48,371 nt of DNA, taken from the IMG/VR virus record IMGVR_UViG_3300050821_006030, positions 1 through 48,371 of that record, one strand, 5' to 3'. Shown piece by piece: positions 14,257-47,193 of the stretch. Numbering within the stretch: the stretch's first letter is position 1; each line of letters starts with the position of its first letter. A model generated the notes under the pieces. That model was not told where the DNA came from. It worked only from the letters and a program-made list of their open reading frames with translations, and made no database searches. Source of the stretch: a virus. Made by a program: the position numbers and the translations under genes.

Positions 14257-14553
14257 CTAGAGCCCGAGGGACTCGAGGTACTGCGCGCGCTTCCGCTCCT
14301 TGGGCTCGGTGTCCTGAGCCTTCATGAGCTTGGCGCGCTCGACGCCCTGCAGGTAGACGACGTGGGCGTTGATGAAGCGCCGGAACACCGCCTTCTCACC
14401 GAGTAGGGCAACCGCGTCGCCCAAGGATGCGGGCAGGTCCGCGTCGAAGTCCTGCTCGGACTTCTCGTCTCCACCGGCCTTGGTGGACACCTTGAGGACC
14501 ACGGTCTTGACCTTGGCCTCGTGCTTGTCGGGAACATTGATCGCTGCGGCCAT
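14257..14553 (-). CDS. Hypothetical phage protein (98 aa)
   Basis: 98 residues, ATG 14553 with GAGAGGAG upstream. A beta-type N-terminal half (KTVVLKVSTKAGG) is followed by an acidic linker and a helical C-terminus ending in a basic run (EPKERKRAQYLESLGL). No known motif is visible. It lies in the replication/recombination part of the leftward operon. Confidence 0.65.
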   Translation of the reverse strand: MAAAINVPDKHEAKVKTVVLKVSTKAGGDEKSEQDFDADLPASLGDAVALLGEKAVFRRFINAHVVYLQGVERAKLMKAQDTEPKERKRAQYLESLGL

Positions 14554-14640
14554 GCTGTCTCCTCTCTATGGGTTTCAAAACAGACCCGAAATGGGCCACC
14601 CTGAGAGACTGCAATTTCGGTGCCAATCCGGCCGGGTTTG

Positions 14641-21991: not shown

Positions 21992-22137
21992 TTTGCTGCC
22001 TCCTCGAGATGCTCTGTGATGACCTCGATGGCCTCACGCATCCATTGGATCAGCTCGGGCTCCACGCCTTTGTGCTTGAGTTGGATGATGCTGAAGTGTA
22101 GCTCTTTGGATACGGCGATGATGTCGCGCTTGTTCAT
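21988..22137 (-). CDS. Small helical hypothetical protein (49 aa)
   Basis: 49 residues, ATG 22137 after CAGGAGCTAGAGAT. Three short helices (MNKRDIIAVSKELHFSIIQL and IQWMREAIEVITEHLEEA). Acidic at the C-terminus. Family unknown. Confidence 0.6.
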   Translation of the reverse strand: MNKRDIIAVSKELHFSIIQLKHKGVEPELIQWMREAIEVITEHLEEAAK

Positions 22138-22141
22138 ATCT

Positions 22142-22537
22142 CTAGCTCCTGCCGTGTCGGATTGCGCGGCGAACCGGCTCAGCGATCTGATTCTCGAATT
22201 GTGGGGGCACGGAGCCGAAGGCCGCGAGCGCATTCAGCGCGGCGTTGTATGCGCGGTCTGCTTCGTTGCGAGCGCGAAGCGCCTGATGGCACGCATCCAT
22301 GAGCTTGTAGAATTCATCTTGTTGGGTCTGCGATAGATTCTCGCGCTTGAAGGCTTGATAGCCTTCGCGATGTGCATCATTATCGGTGCGCTTGCCGAGC
22401 CAGGTCTTGTAGGTCGGGACATCGGTCCAGACTCGCTTGGGCTCGTTGCGTGTGCGTGCGTCCACGCGATACTCTAGGCCCGTGCGTACGCCAGCCTTGG
22501 GCTTGCTTGGTTCGGTATTGAACAGGAGCTTGGTCAT
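22142..22537 (-). CDS. Hypothetical early protein with KLLFN N-terminus (131 aa)
   Basis: 131 residues, ATG 22537 preceded by AAAGG. It opens MTKLLFNTEPSKPK, very like the isolated rightward gene (MAKLTFNTSEPKAA). The centre is basic and Trp-containing and the C-terminus is a long Ala-rich helix. It is the first gene after the sigma-70-like early promoter at 22618-22646, so it is probably among the earliest made phage proteins. A structured leader (ccatcc/ggatgg and GCGCG/CGCGC hairpins) separates promoter and start. Confidence 0.6.
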   Translation of the reverse strand: MTKLLFNTEPSKPKAGVRTGLEYRVDARTRNEPKRVWTDVPTYKTWLGKRTDNDAHREGYQAFKRENLSQTQQDEFYKLMDACHQALRARNEADRAYNAALNALAAFGSVPPQFENQIAEPVRRAIRHGRS

Positions 22538-22617
22538 GGGCAACCTTTCTGCGCGACTGAGCGCGCCATCCCCGGGATGGGGCAATGTGTTGGGCGAAGT
22601 TCCGGGGGCATCAGCGA

Positions 22618-22646
22618 ACCATAACACACGGTGGGTTGCCTGTCAA
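22618..22646 (-). promoter_or_regulatory. Sigma-70-type leftward promoter with AT-rich upstream element
   Basis: On the minus strand TTGACA (22646-22641) is separated by 17 bases from TATGGT (22623-22618). Upstream lies an AT-rich tract (about 22647-22685, with TTTTTTA and AAAATAATT) that could act as an UP element. It fires toward the 131-residue gene and the rest of the leftward operon. Confidence 0.75.
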
Positions 22647-22716
22647 GAATTATTTTGATTGCGAGATAAAAAAGATTAAATCGAAGATGAGTGGCATGTC
22701 ATAAGGCCACTGGGGG

Positions 22717-22732
22717 CTTCAGGCATTTGAAG
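22717..22732. repeat. Palindrome site 3 of 6
   Basis: cttcag-gcat-ttgaag, one G.T mismatch in the dyad. The right flank tccgtaga is identical to that of site 4. It lies between the stop of the 161-residue leftward gene and the sigma-70-type promoter. Confidence 0.7.
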
Positions 22733-22754
22733 TCCGTAGAAAGGGAGCAGCGGG

Positions 22755-23240
22755 CTACTTGTCTCCTCGTGCTTTGCGCATGAATGCGTCGATGTCTAGG
22801 CCGCGCTCAGGCTTGTAGCTCAGGCGTGAGATTGATGCGTGGTCCTTGTTGGTACGATCCCGCTGCTCAGCTACGGCTACGATGTGGGCAACGCCACCAC
22901 TCACCCGGCTCATGCGGCGCTCGACAATGCGAGATTGGCGGTCCTCTATCACGATTCTGAACATGTCAGCATGTTCTTTGCACATGTTAGCGAACGTGGG
23001 GTCCATGTCTCCGTCGGCACATGGGAGCTTGCAGCGAATGCAGTATGCGAGGTGCCACTCGCTTTGGATATATTCGCGGTGCACGTTCCAATTGCACTCG
23101 AGAAGCATATCAGCGGGAATCTCGTGTATGTTGTGGCCGAGGTTATCTAGACGATCAGATAGGCGTGTCAGATAGCGATAGTTAACGCGCTGCTTGCGTG
23201 GGCCAATGAAGTTGATGGGGCGACGTCGTGGCGGGATCAT
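22755..23240 (-). CDS. Hypothetical Cys-containing protein (161 aa)
   Basis: 161 residues, ATG 23240 with AAAGGAG upstream. A basic N-terminus (PPRRRPINFIGPRKQRVNYR) precedes a helical stretch. CIRCKLPC and MCKEHADM supply possible zinc ligands, and the C-terminus is Arg-rich (IVERRMSRVSGGV). It is the first gene of the leftward direction and lies about 50 bases from a sigma-54-like promoter. A regulatory role is possible but not shown. Confidence 0.6.
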   Translation of the reverse strand: MIPPRRRPINFIGPRKQRVNYRYLTRLSDRLDNLGHNIHEIPADMLLECNWNVHREYIQSEWHLAYCIRCKLPCADGDMDPTFANMCKEHADMFRIVIEDRQSRIVERRMSRVSGGVAHIVAVAEQRDRTNKDHASISRLSYKPERGLDIDAFMRKARGDK

Positions 23241-23294
23241 AATCTCGTTCTCCTTTGTGTGGGATCGTTGACAGTGCTACCAATGGATGATATA

Positions 23295-23311
23295 TGCAAG
23301 TCCGGTGCCAC
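23295..23311 (-). promoter_or_regulatory. Sigma-54-type (-24/-12) promoter, leftward
   Basis: The minus strand reads TGGCAC-CGGAC-TTGCA. The GG and GC are separated by exactly 10 bases, as required by sigma-54, and the sequence matches the family consensus at nearly every conserved position. The predicted start would be near 23284, about 45 bases upstream of the first leftward gene (ATG 23240). Confidence 0.6.
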
Positions 23312-23375
23312 ACAGAGCTGACTTGCACGGGTCGAGACTCGTGATCAAGAGAGCGCATCACGTGAACTTTGCTAT

Positions 23376-23399
23376 CAGTCGTCTTGTCATCAACTATCC
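23376..23399 (-). repeat. Inverted repeat arm A
   Basis: Read on the minus strand this 24-base segment starts GGATAGTTGATGACAAG. It matches arm B (23526-23549, plus strand) at 21 of 24 positions. Similarity continues inward (CCACC...CAAGGCCC) and both arms are followed outward by CACGTGATG. The two arms face away from an AT-rich centre. Confidence 0.7.
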
Positions 23400-23525
23400 A
23401 GGCGGGCCTTGGTGGTGGTCGGGATCGTGAGTTCATCATTCATATACATTTATTTTTTTATTATGAACTATATATTCGCAGCGATGATCTACGAGCTTCA
23501 AACCTCCACCCTCAAAGCCCCCCGG

Positions 23526-23549
23526 GGATAGTTGACGACAGGACGACCG
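23526..23549 (+). repeat. Inverted repeat arm B
   Basis: GGATAGTTGACGACAGG and the following bases are the partner of arm A. The 126-bp interval between arms holds the AT-rich core with a run of seven T. The CACGTGATG lies at 23576-23584. Confidence 0.7.
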
Positions 23550-23610
23550 GCAACCGATGACTACGAGGATTAGCCACGTGATGGTGGAGACATGAACGGT
23601 CTCGTTGCCT

Positions 23611-23625
23611 GTTCAATGATTGAAG
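23611..23625. repeat. Palindrome site 5 of 6 (3-base spacer)
   Basis: gttcaa-tga-ttgaag differs from the other sites by a 3-base spacer. It lies between the inverted repeat and the rightward promoter. The preceding tctcgttgc also occurs at 24544-24552, directly followed by gtttcaatg, a half-site just upstream of the rightward sigma-54-like promoter. Confidence 0.6.
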
Positions 23626-23893
23626 CATCCAGATATCCACCAGCGGCCGTGCTATCGGCTTGCCCCAGCAAGCCATCGGGCAACTGACCAGCGGCCTGAC
23701 CAGCGGCCCGCCACCGACCCGCCTCGCGAGCTCACTCGGGCATTGGAGTAGCGCAAGGCAGAGCGCGTAGCGCAGCCCGTAAGGACGGGCGTAAGAGCGG
23801 GATGCAAGGCATCGCGAAGCAGAGCACGAGCTAGAGCACCAAGCAATGCCGCAGGTAGCAGGAACTGTGCCAAAAATAAAGTTGAAAAAAACC

Positions 23894-23922
23894 TTGACTG
23901 TGGGGGGTGCCTGTGGCAGTAT
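23894..23922 (+). promoter_or_regulatory. Sigma-70-like rightward promoter
   Basis: TTGACT (23894-23899), a 17-base spacer and CAGTAT (23917-23922), preceded by an A-rich tract (taaagttgaaaaaaacc). The -10 box is only a partial match. It would drive the single gene at 23986. Confidence 0.55.
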
Positions 23923-23958
23923 CCGGTTGTCCGCGCAACAAAGCGCGGCCACAACCGG
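23923..23958 (+). promoter_or_regulatory. Strong 5' leader hairpin
   Basis: ccggttgt-ccgcgc-aacaaa-gcgcgg-cc-acaaccgg gives 8 bp plus 6 bp with a 2-base bulge. It begins right after the -10 box, so it would form at the very 5' end of the transcript. Such 5' hairpins usually protect abundant phage mRNAs from decay (known behaviour, applied here by inference). Confidence 0.65.
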
Positions 23959-23985
23959 CGGAAAACCCGCCAGAAAGATAGGGAA

Positions 23986-24348
23986 ATGGCAAAGCTCACT
24001 TTCAACACGTCGGAGCCCAAGGCAGCACAAGTCAAAGGCGGAAGCTACATCCGGCTGATCGGGGATCAGCAGGCCGCTTTCCGCAATCTGATGCGCGATC
24101 TCGGATTCGATCCGGAGAGCCCGCGAGCCGACGCCGGGGTCAAGAAAGTCGGAGAGATGGTCGCGGGACTTGGTATTGATCTAGCTCGCGAGCTTCTGGC
24201 AACGGGCACCGAGAGCCTCGCACAGTACAAGGAGAAGCTCACGGCAGGTGATCAGGCCGAGGATAACGCGGCCGCTGCGGCAATCGCCGAGGACATCGCG
24301 TCCCAGGCAGAGGCCAAGGCTGATCAGAAGGCCAAGCCGAAGGCCTAA
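23986..24348 (+). CDS. Isolated early-type protein with KLTFN N-terminus (120 aa)
   Basis: 120 residues, ATG 23986 after agatagggaa (weak ribosome site). The N-terminus MAKLTFNTSEPKAAQVK resembles the opening of the leftward gene at 22537. The centre (AFRNLMRDLGFDPESP to GLGIDLARELL) is helical. The C-terminal 35 residues are Ala/Lys/Glu-rich and probably extended. It is the only gene with its own promoter, leader hairpin and terminator, implying separate and probably heavy expression. No family is recognised. Confidence 0.65.
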   Translation: MAKLTFNTSEPKAAQVKGGSYIRLIGDQQAAFRNLMRDLGFDPESPRADAGVKKVGEMVAGLGIDLARELLATGTESLAQYKEKLTAGDQAEDNAAAAAIAEDIASQAEAKADQKAKPKA

Positions 24349-24361
24349 GATCAGGCACATG

Positions 24362-24396
24362 ATGGGGGGTGCCGCAAGGCACCCCTCATTTTTTTT
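24362..24396 (+). terminator. Intrinsic terminator with GCAA tetraloop
   Basis: GGGGTGCC-GCAA-GGCACCCC, extended by flanking pairs to about 12 bp, then a run of eight T (24389-24396). It closes the single-gene unit and isolates it from the late operon. Confidence 0.9.
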
Positions 24397-24573
24397 GCTC
24401 ATGGATATATATCTTGCCACAGCTCCTTATAAAGCAAGAGCCTTAGCTTGACGCCCCCCACACAAACGCATCACGGCTGGGACCCGCAGGGTACCCCTCC
24501 ACCAAACCGCGGCACAAAATTTTGCGATTTCCAAGATAACTTCTCTCGTTGCGTTTCAATGCCTGCCGGCAGA

Positions 24574-24590
24574 CTGGCACTGTACTTGCA
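24574..24590 (+). promoter_or_regulatory. Sigma-54-type (-24/-12) promoter, rightward
   Basis: CTGGCAC-TGTAC-TTGCA, with GG and GC 10 bases apart and one departure from the standard consensus. The predicted start is near 24601. Upstream lie a CTGCCGGCAG dyad and a half-site of the genomic palindrome. Downstream, before the first late gene (ATG 24657), is a GGGGCG-GAGA-CGCCCC hairpin (about 24627-24642). No other promoter-like sequence was seen in this 308-bp gap. Confidence 0.65.
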
Positions 24591-24656
24591 TAGTCCCCAG
24601 GGGCGGCATCGCTCATCGAGATAGGGGCGGAGACGCCCCGCTACAGGGAGGACATC

Positions 24657-24995
24657 ATGGCAACAGTCGAGAAGGCCCACGGGGTGGCGGACCACGGAGT
24701 GGCAGACAAGCAGGCAGGGAAGCCCACGAACCAAGCCGAGGCCGCGAAGGCCGTGAACAAGGCAACTGGGCACGGTCCGGATGGAACCCTAACCGAGAAC
24801 CAGCTCTCGCGCGCGGCGTCCGAGTATATGGTTGCTCTGCGAGCCCAACCGACGCCGCCCGTGATGGAGGAAGTTCTCATCAAGATCGTCGAGGTCGACG
24901 AACACGGCAAGCTCAAGCATCAGTGCAAGTCGACCGACGAAGTGCCCGCACTCGTGGATGCCGCCCTGAGCGAAGCCGCTCAGCCGAAGAAGTAA
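24657..24995 (+). CDS. First late gene, hypothetical (112 aa)
   Basis: 112 residues, ATG 24657 with a GGGAGG ribosome site. A disordered N-terminal half rich in Ala, Lys, Gln and Gly precedes a short alpha/beta C-terminal part (VMEEVLIKIVEVDEHGKLKH). No family is recognised. It heads the rightward late unit. Confidence 0.6.
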   Translation: MATVEKAHGVADHGVADKQAGKPTNQAEAAKAVNKATGHGPDGTLTENQLSRAASEYMVALRAQPTPPVMEEVLIKIVEVDEHGKLKHQCKSTDEVPALVDAALSEAAQPKK

Positions 24996-24998
24996 GCC

Positions 24999-25202
24999 AT
25001 GGCAGCGCCCACGCCCGATCCGGGCATCGCAGCCCTCGCGCACGAGTTCCCGTGTATGATACGACGGTGGCTCGGCAAGGGCGGCAACGCGGCAGTCTTC
25101 CCCAACTACGACTTCTTCCCCTGGCTGGGCCAGAACATCAACACCCCGGCGGGCCGCACGCCGCCCTGGACAACTGACGACAAGACGCACCCCATCCCGT
25201 GA
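24999..25202 (+). CDS. Short paralogue of the following gene (67 aa)
   Basis: 67 residues, ATG 24999. RRWLGKGGNAAVFPNYDFF and PWLGQNINTPAG are nearly repeated in the next protein (RRWLGKSGNAAIFPAYDFF, PWLGQRVDSPPG). It is either a stand-alone N-terminal module or the remains of a tandem duplication. Its TGA overlaps the next GTG start (GTGA). Confidence 0.6.
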   Translation: MAAPTPDPGIAALAHEFPCMIRRWLGKGGNAAVFPNYDFFPWLGQNINTPAGRTPPWTTDDKTHPIP

Positions 25203-25696
25203 GCACCGATCTGGGCATAGCGTGGCTCTCCAGCCTACGCACCCGGCGCTGGCTCGGGAAGAGTGGGAACGCCGCGATCTTCCCCGCCTACGATTTCTTC
25301 CCGTGGTTGGGCCAACGTGTCGACTCGCCGCCGGGACAGAGTTGGAACTCTGACGACCCGCACCGGTCTGTCGTCACGAAGTCGGACACCGCCATATCGG
25401 GCTCGTGGGCATGGGGAGCCAACTACATTGGCGAGACGCTCACGGGAGCCCCAGCCCCCGTAGACGTGCTATACGTCAGCTACGGTACCATGTGGGTCAA
25501 CATTGTGTGGCCCACCGTGAAGGCCGGTGCGAACATCCAGATATGGTCCCAGGATGGGGCAACCTTCTACCAAAACTGGACCGCAACGGGTGACTTCATC
25601 GTGGCTGATCCTGGCGGGCACGTAGCCGTAGCTGGTGGCACGCCCCTCATCGGAATCCAAGCGACCTTTGGCGTGTTGGTCAAAGTCACACAGTGA
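25199..25696 (+). CDS. Beta-rich late protein with duplicated N-terminal module (165 aa)
   Basis: 165 residues with a GTG start (25199). Residues 10-45 repeat the module of the preceding small gene. Residues 55-165 are beta-rich with Gly/Thr/Val alternation (SGSWAWGANYIGETL, VLYVSYGTMWVNIVW), like a small jelly-roll or decoration domain. Placed ahead of the lysis genes. Function unknown, possibly virion-surface. Confidence 0.55.
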   Translation: MSTDLGIAWLSSLRTRRWLGKSGNAAIFPAYDFFPWLGQRVDSPPGQSWNSDDPHRSVVTKSDTAISGSWAWGANYIGETLTGAPAPVDVLYVSYGTMWVNIVWPTVKAGANIQIWSQDGATFYQNWTATGDFIVADPGGHVAVAGGTPLIGIQATFGVLVKVTQ

Positions 25697-26451
25697 AAGA
25701 GATCGAAGTCAGCGCGGGCCAGCGTGCTCGTACGCAGGCCATGATGAAGCTCCTGTACCGCGTGCGCCCCGGCGACACGCTTTCGGGGCTCGCCGAGCGA
25801 TCCGGTATGCGCTGGCAAGACTTATACGCCGCCAACCGTGACACGCTAGACGATCCCAACAAGCTTCGTGTTGGTCAGCAGCTCCGGCTCCGCCCCACGG
25901 CTTCACCACCGGCGCCCCGCACCGAAGCCGGAACCCCCCGCACCTCCACCCCTCCCAAGCCTCCGGCCTCTCCGGCGACTACAATTAAGCCCGTTGGGGA
26001 TGACGTTCCTGTCTATCCTGCAGCGGGCTTTGTGTTTCATCATTCGGGTGGAAGCACCCTCGCGAGTCTACGAGCGACGCTCCAACAGCGCGGGCTAGGT
26101 TCCCAATACCTCATGGATCGGGACGGCACAATCTACAACTTCGCTGGTCCCGGCTCGCCACACATCAGGCCCAACGATCTCTACCACGGTCGAGCCCCAG
26201 GCTTGTCGAACGAGAATGCCGTAGGCATGGAAGTTGTCGCCCGTGACAACAGCGATGTCACGCCCGCTCAGATAGCAGCAGCCCGTAAGTTCATTGACCA
26301 ATATTATCCCGACGTACCCGTGTACGGTCACGGTGAGGTCAACCCCGGGCACAAGCAAGCGGACGAGGGCATGGCTATTGTCAACACGATCCGTGGCGAG
26401 CGAAACGCCACCCCGATAGGCCAAAGTATCGAGTTAGCAGCTAATGAGTAA
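25693..26451 (+). CDS. Endolysin: LysM plus N-acetylmuramoyl-L-alanine amidase (Amidase_2)
   Basis: 252 residues, GTG start in a GTGA overlap. Residues about 20-67 are a LysM peptidoglycan-binding domain (YRVRPGDTLSGLAERSG ... LRVGQQLRL). A Pro/Thr linker follows. The C-terminal ~130 residues are a PGRP/Amidase_2 domain with FHHSGG (first zinc His), DRDGTIYNF, ENAVGMEVVA and YGHGEVNPGHKQADEG (second His and catalytic region). It cuts the amide bond between muramic acid and the stem peptide. No signal peptide is seen, so it needs a holin. Confidence 0.85.
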   Translation: MKEIEVSAGQRARTQAMMKLLYRVRPGDTLSGLAERSGMRWQDLYAANRDTLDDPNKLRVGQQLRLRPTASPPAPRTEAGTPRTSTPPKPPASPATTIKPVGDDVPVYPAAGFVFHHSGGSTLASLRATLQQRGLGSQYLMDRDGTIYNFAGPGSPHIRPNDLYHGRAPGLSNENAVGMEVVARDNSDVTPAQIAAARKFIDQYYPDVPVYGHGEVNPGHKQADEGMAIVNTIRGERNATPIGQSIELAANE

Positions 26452-31691: not shown

Positions 31692-32257
31692 TGCCTGGCA
31701 CAACTGGCGACATCATTTGGAAGAAGCTCGATCCAAAGACCTTCGAGCTCTACAACGAGCACCCCGAAGAAGCCCCGCAGGATCAACAAACCACTGAAGA
31801 ACAACCTGAGCCCACGGTCGATCCTTGGCGAGGCCGACGGGCTGTTCCGAGCGAGAAGGAGATGTTCCAACGCGATCTGGCGATCCATGGAGCCGAGGAG
31901 GCTGCTCGGCGGGCGATGAAGCACCAGCACATGCGCCAACTGAGCGACTTCGACCACGAGCTGCGACACAATCCAAACGCAGATATCCAATCGGGTATTC
32001 AGGGTCTACTCGATAGCGGGGCGCTTCGACTCGATGAGAATGGCGATCTTTGGAGCCCTACGGTCAAGCTTGGTCCCCACGCGAGCCAGCGTATTCTGGA
32101 AGCCTCGCGGATATGGCAGCCGCCCACTCGAGATCCTGAAGAGGAAATGCGTGATGAGCCCACCCGAGGATCCACGGATATGAGCGAGAGCATCGACAGC
32201 CAGATCCAACAGGCGGCCAGTGGCATAGGTGGCAGACCCGATGAGGATGAGAACTAA
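31691..32257 (+). CDS. Acidic hypothetical late protein (188 aa)
   Basis: 188 residues, ATG 31691 in a TAATG overlap with terL. Glu/Gln/Pro-rich N-terminal part, a helical centre (RRAMKHQHMRQLSDFDHEL) and a disordered acidic C-terminus. Position between terminase and portal suggests a head-related factor. No family is recognised. Confidence 0.55.
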   Translation: MPGTTGDIIWKKLDPKTFELYNEHPEEAPQDQQTTEEQPEPTVDPWRGRRAVPSEKEMFQRDLAIHGAEEAARRAMKHQHMRQLSDFDHELRHNPNADIQSGIQGLLDSGALRLDENGDLWSPTVKLGPHASQRILEASRIWQPPTRDPEEEMRDEPTRGSTDMSESIDSQIQQAASGIGGRPDEDEN

Positions 32258-32619
32258 TGCCAACCACGGCTAGGGTGAACATCGCGGCGAACGACCCGAT
32301 CACGCAACTCATCGACGACGTGATCGTGACCCAATTTGGGCGCCACACGACTGTGAATCTGCCCGCAGTGACAGACGTTGTCGTGCCTTGGCCCACTACA
32401 GGCGAGCTGTTCATGTACATGACGCTATCCTCGCCTGTCGAGACGCAGGTGGGGATTCGTCCATTCGGAGCAGGAGACTCGTGGGTGTTCTTCGTTGAGC
32501 CCTCTGCACCAACGTCAATACTTCTACCGAAGCTACTGGGTGATGTTGCTGGTGATCCCCCTGCGTTTATCCTCAACTCATTTCAGCCGATCGACGTCGT
32601 GTCGATAATGTTCTTCTAA
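32257..32619 (+). CDS. Beta-rich hypothetical structural protein (120 aa)
   Basis: 120 residues, ATG 32257 in a TAATG overlap. Strongly beta pattern (TTVNLPAVTDVVVPWPTTGE, GDSWVFFVEPSAPTSILLP), like a small head-decoration or fibre-attachment domain. Not recognised. Confidence 0.55.
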   Translation: MPTTARVNIAANDPITQLIDDVIVTQFGRHTTVNLPAVTDVVVPWPTTGELFMYMTLSSPVETQVGIRPFGAGDSWVFFVEPSAPTSILLPKLLGDVAGDPPAFILNSFQPIDVVSIMFF

Positions 32620-45537: not shown

Positions 45538-47193
45538 ATGGCACAACAAGTCTTTACACGGCAGCCCGTACCACAGAAGGGACTCTGGACCGCAGCGTCG
45601 CCGGACGCGATTGGTCCCGAGTATAGCCCGTGGTGCGAGAACGTCCGGTTCCGCTTCGGGAAGGTCCTGCGGACGCCTGGCCGGTCGGTCTTGCTGGACA
45701 CAGCGCCGGCGTTGTCATTTGTGGACTTCGCGACGCTCGTGGATACGAGTGGGTACACAAACATCATGGCCCTATGGACGGGGGCTAACAACGAGATCGG
45801 GGTGTTTGATCCAGCAATCAATAAGTTTGCACTCATCGGCGTGCTGCCCGGCACGCTTAAGGAGGTTCGGTTTAGCTGGACGATGGGGGAGGAGCAGCTC
45901 TTTGTGGTGCGGGGCTCCCGAGTCGTGGCTGTGAACACACAAGTAGCAAGTGGTGTAGCCCCGGGGCTAAAGGCCGCGACACCGCCGGCCTCGTTCAACA
46001 TCATCCACCTCAATGCACCAAGTGGATGTTTCCTCTCGTACTTCAAGGACCATGTGTTCGTGGGAAACATACTAGAGAGCACAGTCTCGACAGACAACGC
46101 CGGGGCTATGTCGAACCGCTTGATATGGAGCGCGCCGCGTAACTACCAAGATTGGTCCCTCGTACATAGCGATGGGACCGAAGCGGGAGGCTTCCTCGAT
46201 CTGTACGATGGGATCGTGGAGCCCATCACGGGCATGAAGGTCCTGAACGATCGGCTCGTGGTGTACAGAAACTCAACGATCACGGATATGAACGCCACGG
46301 GTGACGCGCTCACGCCGTTCTTGCCCGAGAATCGGGTCATGGGGATTGGTTGCATGATCCCCTGGTCGCTGGTTTCGGTGGGCCAGTTCCATATCTTCGT
46401 GGGCAACGACTTCAACATCTATGCGTGGGATGGCTCGAACCTCGATCCCATCGGGTCGCCCATCCACTCGTACCTGCGGCAGTTGTTCGATCCGAGCATG
46501 TCGGGCATAAGGTGGCAGAACATGCCGTTTGCTACGGCATTCATGGGCTTCAAGGAATACTGGCTCGTGATCCCACAGGGGAACCAGGCCACCGTTCTAA
46601 TCTACGATTACTTTCGGGGCGCGTGGACTCGAGACGTGCTTGAGACTCCCATCACAGCGATGTTCGAGCAGATCCTACCAGGCGCGGTGGGCACGCCGGG
46701 CTTCCACGGGGAGAAGTACCCGACCACCTACCCAACTATGATGGTGGGGTCTGGGGCGAATTTCTTCGAGATTGACGAGCGGATCGTTGGGGATTTCTAC
46801 ACGGGTGGGATGGACATGTTCTTCGATACGCCGGACATGTACTATAACCAGAACGCCATGATCAACGGGACGCTCGAACGGGTGCTCGTGTCGCAGGATA
46901 TTCCCGAGGACACCACGCCGTATGAAGTGCGGGTGAGCATTGATAGGGGCAACTCGTTCCCGTACATTCAGAGCGTCAAGCCGAGCGGGATGCATTGGGG
47001 CTTCGAGTTCGCAGACTTGAATATATCGTCCAACGTGCGGCGGTTCCGATTCTTCTACCCCAGGGAGAACGGGGCAACGAAGCCTACGCTGAGGGCCTAC
47101 ACCGATGTTTACGTCCCAAGTGGAGAGTTCTTCCCAGTCGACCGAACCCTCAACCCCGCCGACCCTGACGTTCCGCCCACTAATATTAACTAG
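45538..47193 (+). CDS. Large tail hub/stabilisation-like protein (P22 gp10-like)
   Basis: 551 residues, ATG 45538. Repeated beta units (YTNIMALWTGANNEIGVFDP; GQFHIFVGNDFNIYAWDGSN) suggest a propeller-like fold. VRFRFGKVLRTPGRSVLLDT near the start and the length resemble packaged-DNA stabilisation/tail-hub proteins such as P22 gp10. Its position after the adaptor supports a tail-nozzle role. Family assignment is by analogy. Confidence 0.6.
   Translation: MAQQVFTRQPVPQKGLWTAASPDAIGPEYSPWCENVRFRFGKVLRTPGRSVLLDTAPALSFVDFATLVDTSGYTNIMALWTGANNEIGVFDPAINKFALIGVLPGTLKEVRFSWTMGEEQLFVVRGSRVVAVNTQVASGVAPGLKAATPPASFNIIHLNAPSGCFLSYFKDHVFVGNILESTVSTDNAGAMSNRLIWSAPRNYQDWSLVHSDGTEAGGFLDLYDGIVEPITGMKVLNDRLVVYRNSTITDMNATGDALTPFLPENRVMGIGCMIPWSLVSVGQFHIFVGNDFNIYAWDGSNLDPIGSPIHSYLRQLFDPSMSGIRWQNMPFATAFMGFKEYWLVIPQGNQATVLIYDYFRGAWTRDVLETPITAMFEQILPGAVGTPGFHGEKYPTTYPTMMVGSGANFFEIDERIVGDFYTGGMDMFFDTPDMYYNQNAMINGTLERVLVSQDIPEDTTPYEVRVSIDRGNSFPYIQSVKPSGMHWGFEFADLNISSNVRRFRFFYPRENGATKPTLRAYTDVYVPSGEFFPVDRTLNPADPDVPPTNIN

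Follow-up and report, generated by a model that had tools for sequence, protein, structure and literature searches.

Lytic phages mostly begin transcription on the housekeeping sigma factor of the host, and sigma-54 (RpoN) cannot initiate without an ATP-driven activator. The bacterial sigma-54 promoter has the consensus TGGCACN5-7TTGCT, as given in the accessible part of a recent survey (PMC12316311). Dependence of a phage on RpoN was called uncommon in the original prediction for the DNA studied here, which was made from sequence alone. It is indeed rare, but there is a precedent in Pseudomonas phage YuA (Yuavirus, NC_010116), the development of which is strictly dependent on host sigma-54 according to the available portion of PMC5053324, where phage use of sigma-54 is described as rare though with precedent. 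YuA likewise has −24/−12 promoters, of which three are annotated, with 'high activity', and elsewhere in its genome there are two −35/−10 promoters plus five repeats noted as putative sigma-70 promoters. Here we analyse a virus record of 48,371 bases, the whole of which we term the window.

The −24/−12 elements and the operons that they precede

The terminal 73 bases of the window are identical at both ends, which makes a complete circular map probable. Gene calling with a simple hexamer-based program yielded 87 genes. Most genes are small in the first block, which is leftward and extends from 23240 down to about 14641. The replication block, also leftward, starts at 14553 and, as judged by Pfam and PHROG families, comprises the 98-aa gene, a PD-(D/E)XK nuclease, an AAA_24 ATPase, a DNA polymerase and a primase, together with a methyltransferase that has a ParB-like part. 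The rightward block begins at 24657, extends beyond the end of the record, and contains LysM-amidase, terminase, portal, capsid and tail fibre families. Gene content suggests that the three blocks would be expressed in the order early, middle and late. The first protein of the rightward block has one Pfam match, DUF6197, with E = 0.08, below the family cut-off. No tRNA was found in the window, nor any Rfam match reaching the gathering score.

Among 32 scanned proteins, one from the rightward operon matches the Acb2/Tad1 hairpin domain (E = 3.4e-14); phage proteins of this family counter signal-based defence. Collagen triple-helix repeats (E = 6e-24) are present in one of 32 scanned proteins, also from the rightward operon, where tail fibre families match too. 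One of 36 scanned proteins matches the nucleoside 2-deoxyribosyltransferase family (E = 4e-20).

Each of the three blocks has one exact sigma-54-type element at its head, designated A, B and C (Table 1). The sequence TGGCAC-N5-TTGC lies at 14611-14625 (−), 23296-23310 (−) and 24575-24589 (+); the next base is A in all three, and GG and GC are ten bases apart. The original prediction had placed sigma-54 promoters at two operon heads, those of B and C, and had seen no further site. Both named sites are present with the expected spacing, at the stated positions to within one base, but two heads were too few; promoter A is a third exact match, and there is in addition a one-mismatch copy, the weak fourth element. 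A distance of 45-55 bases to the first start codon had also been given, which is correct for C and too short for B. A comparison with shuffled sequence had been proposed, and this favours the elements: against the three exact matches, 100 dinucleotide shuffles gave a mean of 0.08 and a maximum of one.

The fourth element faces left with no gene directly behind it. At the same place there is an exact match in relative G002 and a site with one mismatch in each of G003 and L167, while the G004 counterpart is degenerate. A possible structured RNA leftward of this site gave z = −2.9, −3.8, −5.0 and −1.3 in four phages, relative to 30 plain shuffles.

Table 1. Features of the window, with coordinates, strand and properties
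Feature	Position	Strand	Properties
Promoter A (putative)	14610..14625	−	TGGCACCGAAATTGCA; exact match; intergenic; 56 nt upstream of the ATG of the 98-aa gene, replication operon
Promoter B (putative)	24575..24590	+	TGGCACTGTACTTGCA; exact match; 66 nt upstream of the 112-aa gene, rightward lysis/structural operon
Promoter C (putative)	23295..23310	−	TGGCACCGGACTTGCA; exact match; 54 nt upstream of the 161-aa gene, leftward small-gene operon
Weak fourth element	23857..23872	−	TGGCACAGTTCCTGCT; one mismatch; between gene D and promoter C
First gene, replication operon	14257..14553	−	98 aa; 72-91% identity in relatives; no Pfam match
First gene, rightward operon	24657..24995	+	112 aa; no PHROG match
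First gene, leftward operon	22755..23240	−	161 aa; no Pfam or PHROG match
Gene D	23986..24348	+	120 aa; between B and C
Sigma-70-like pattern before gene D	23894..23922	+	TTGACT-17-CAGTAT; 8 of 12
Terminator-like hairpin and T run after gene D	24361..24396	+	
Sigma-70-like pattern before second leftward gene	22646-22618	−	TTGACA-17-TATGGT; 10 of 12; extended −10
Conserved 19-base element	24479-24497	+	GGGACCCGCAGGGTACCCC; 77 nt before promoter B
Three repeats	23638..23708	−	GGCCGCTGGT; near AT-rich stretch at about 23450-23480

Conservation of the elements among related phages

Relatives were collected using terminase, polymerase and capsid queries, giving 27, 11 and 73 viral loci respectively, with contigs partly shared between the sets. 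To define orthologous regions, we took as anchors the genes that open the three operons, using the window, the 27 terminase records and five further polymerase contigs; close capsid contigs were covered only where they coincide with these. In each we took the best GG-N10-GC site within up to 350 nt upstream of the anchor gene. Such a site with 0-2 mismatches was present in 12/12 regions for promoter A, 14/14 for B and 12/12 for C. The same elements were thus retained, with the GG/GC spacing that had been expected of relatives, in all 38 regions. Element C is kept although the first protein of its operon shares just 25-40% identity with its counterpart in the window. In G004 (at A, 32227-32516) and in G020 (at B, 46343-46596) element and operon are separated by a small HNH_3 gene, and HNH-like frames were seen by eye in G019 at A and, shortened, at B, and in L167 after B. 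The sigma-54-type element remains in front of the inserted HNH genes.

Removal of duplicates left 36 distinct sites, of which 21 have no mismatch, 11 have one and 4 have two. The information in their profile is high at TGGCAC and TTGCA, with 0.92 bits at the following base; within the spacer it is 0.02-0.52 bits per position, and elsewhere in the flanks no more than 0.42. The GG and GC are invariant because both were required in the site search. The agreement of the profile at TGGCAC and TTGCA with the bacterial consensus, in the form quoted from the accessible part of the survey (PMC12316311), supports the assignment to sigma-54. The sequence of the five-base spacer varies among the relatives. 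Because the best site was picked from as much as 350 nt, the profile looks better than it should, and the regions upstream of genes D, E and F were used as controls to gauge this. In 19/20 of these the best site had at least three mismatches or there was no candidate; the other, upstream of gene D in G004, had one.

Exact matches with a five-base spacer number 21 in the 601,146 bases of the window and the 27 terminase records taken whole. Eight are at B, six each at A and C, and one is elsewhere, at the position of the fourth site in G002; 20 of the 21 therefore precede an A, B or C gene on the strand of that gene. With spacers of 3, 4, 6, 7, 8 and 9 bases the same DNA has 1, 0, 0, 0, 4 and 0 matches. 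Only a spacer of five is strongly enriched, and the four matches at a spacer of eight count against the sigma-54 reading. The exact pattern occurs in 8/27 terminase records, many of which are fragments without operon heads, and the reversed pattern in 0/27. G014, G023 and G024 have no exact match, and their best sites have 1-2 mismatches. In 11 phages a site with no more than one mismatch lies within 100 nt of the start of 22/30 A, B and C genes, compared with 2/758 other genes; of these two, one is a short frame in G019, situated between promoter B and the operon that follows.

Five fresh contigs were obtained, four among 15 loci from one search and one among eight from another, the remaining loci being known contigs. 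All five have the GG-N10-GC site with 1-2 mismatches. In the four A contigs the element is 57-73 nt before the start. In L167, the B contig, it is 77 nt past the conserved 19-base element, an offset shared with the window, G004 and G007. Three further sites were seen in L167: an exact leftward one assigned to no gene, an exact rightward one that was unplaced, and a leftward one with a single mismatch that resembles the fourth site. On these comparisons we consider it very likely that A, B and C are real sigma-54 promoters.

Sigma-70-like patterns and other control sequences

We searched for sigma-70-like patterns in the 260 nt upstream of the operons. A pattern matching at least 9 of 12 positions was found in 0/12 phages for A, 1/14 for B and 1/12 for C, in both cases at a distance above 200 nt. 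Lowering the threshold to 8 of 12 revealed several others in the region from B to C in a number of phages. These weak patterns, matching 8-9 of 12, give some weight to the idea that the sigma-54 promoters work beside a sigma-70 start that the consensus scan missed. The parallel start would carry the early genes, and sigma-54 would only boost them in some host states. YuA pairs promoters of the two kinds, and the window has a pattern matching 10 of 12 before the second leftward gene (Table 1), yet this was not found in the four relatives that carry the gene behind it, and the sigma-54 element persists at each of the three heads. We regard a parallel sigma-70 start as a real possibility, if a rather less than even one.

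The reading in which sigma-54 alone gates the whole lytic programme, through the early, replication and late operons, comes close to an even chance while staying just under it. If it holds, each infection would have to await an active host enhancer-binding protein at every stage, not just late as in YuA, and the window and its three closest relatives would have a sigma-70-like start only at gene D; to both of these we give the same slightly less than even standing.

A rightward gene occupies the position of gene D in all 12 phages that have both the B and C genes. BLAST connects gene D to its counterparts in G002, G003 and G004 alone. These three have TTGACN-17-TANNNT at the same place before the gene, matching 8, 9 and 10 of 12 positions respectively, and the other eight lack a sigma-70-like pattern just before it. 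The product of gene D possibly has a DNA-binding ribbon-helix-helix fold, according to a structure model with mean pLDDT = 67 and pTM = 0.36; a fold search with it gave no significant match, the best in the PDB having E = 2.3. Given the position of gene D between B and C, and the many small genes of unassigned function, the motif might be an operator instead of a promoter, bound by a phage regulator such as the gene D product or some other small protein, and it does lie near operon heads where a regulator would act. Yet the motif is asymmetric and points into the operon every time at A, B and C, its informative bases and five-base spacer match those of sigma-54 promoters, and there is no nearby sigma-70-like pattern (9 of 12) for such an operator to control. 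An operator is consequently very unlikely.

Two further sequences may bear on the control of putative promoters B and C. The 19-base element GGGACCCGCAGGGTACCCC is found 77-223 nt before B in 13 of the 14 phages with a B gene, with 0-3 mismatches in 12 and with one inserted base in G019; in the exception, G014, the record ends 209 nt upstream of the B gene. The element is conserved while its surroundings differ, and it may be a protein-binding or activator site. Between C and gene D, four close phages have the three GGCCGCTGGT repeats and the AT-rich stretch. The repeats are spaced by 12 and 48 bases in the window, G002 and G004, and by 24 and 49 in G003. They too may be an activator site, and with the AT-rich stretch they also resemble a replication origin. 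The 19-base element precedes B only and the repeats precede C, in the four phages; neither is shared by A. Dyad counts and alignments revealed no activator site shared by all three putative promoters. A TTTCAA-N3-TTGAAA palindrome was considered for this role and dropped, as it occurs elsewhere in the genomes too.

That the matches have arisen by chance in a G+C-rich genome, the motif having 10 fixed bases only, is vanishingly improbable, being opposed by the shuffles, the profile, the spacer control, the fresh contigs and the gene-set control, and in practice refuted by conservation across the relatives.

Host factors and comparison with known systems

The original prediction that the phage encodes no activator ATPase is upheld, in that a six-frame search of the record for PF00158 gave no matches. 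Similarly, the families listed for the 83 of 87 called proteins that were compared with Pfam, PHROGs or both include no sigma factor, RNA polymerase or activator. The AAA_24 ATPase of the replication block is distinct from the sigma-54 activator family. If the elements are sigma-54 promoters, both sigma-54 and its activator would therefore come from the host, since no such machinery was seen in the phage itself. We infer that host RNA polymerase with host RpoN would bind ahead of each of the three operons (leftward at C, replication at A, rightward at B), and that a host enhancer-binding ATPase would open the promoter complexes. As opening requires the ATPase, the main operons of these phages would wait on a host activator.

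A scan of genome contigs gave one MAG contig with a distant capsid relative (36%); this MAG has an RpoN DNA-binding domain, a weak pointer to a host that carries rpoN. When 19,901 bases of the window were compared with 398 genomes, short matches were found in 19. The one inspected, a 31/32-base match in L165, was considered as a spacer and rejected; it is not flanked by repeats, and its translation resembles an acidic protein-coding stretch. In tblastn searches of the portal, terminase, capsid and polymerase against named phages, the matches listed all have less than 60% identity. There was no match by blastn for 22000-26000, or by tblastn for 24999-25202. Plaquing on rpoN mutants would call for caution, because such mutants resist a phage through loss of its flagellar receptor, according to the accessible part of PMC11877940.

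If all the main operons do lie behind sigma-54, infection would depend on the physiological state of the host, with the state of a host activator serving the phage as its go signal at each stage. The original prediction had supposed a tie to the nitrogen or stress state of the host, which would be one conceivable form of this. With three conserved promoters in each genome, the group would also offer a clean natural set of sigma-54 promoters, with candidate control sites, from uncultured hosts. Most subscription papers lay outside the literature searched, in which nothing was found about these phages or about any phage having a sigma-54 promoter at every operon.

The elements of the window share the consensus boxes of bacterial RpoN promoters, in which the element is likewise mostly within about 100 nt of the start codon. 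They differ in lying in a phage with no recognised activator gene, and in that no shared upstream activator site was found. In distant phages with capsids 31-46% identical, one −24/−12-like site (0-1 mismatch) diverges from the terminase operon in 4/8 records (G041, G042, G047 and G048). Of the others, G037 has a site pointing toward the terminase operon, G049 has no site with one mismatch or fewer, and the sites of G058 and G066 were assigned to no operon head. Exact matches occur in 2/39 distant records, drawn from 48 such capsid loci, and the reversed pattern has one match. G041, G042, G047 and G048 have one such site and not three, and the three-promoter layout was seen only in the window's own group. 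YuA is absent among the tblastn matches listed for window proteins and, unlike the window, has no site with GG, GC and one mismatch or fewer in its 58,663 bases. Its three −24/−12 promoters are confined to the structural and lysis region, whereas the near-perfect elements of the window head all three main operons. Use of host sigma-54 by a phage is already known from YuA; what sets this group apart is the presence of near-perfect elements at the heads of all three main operons.
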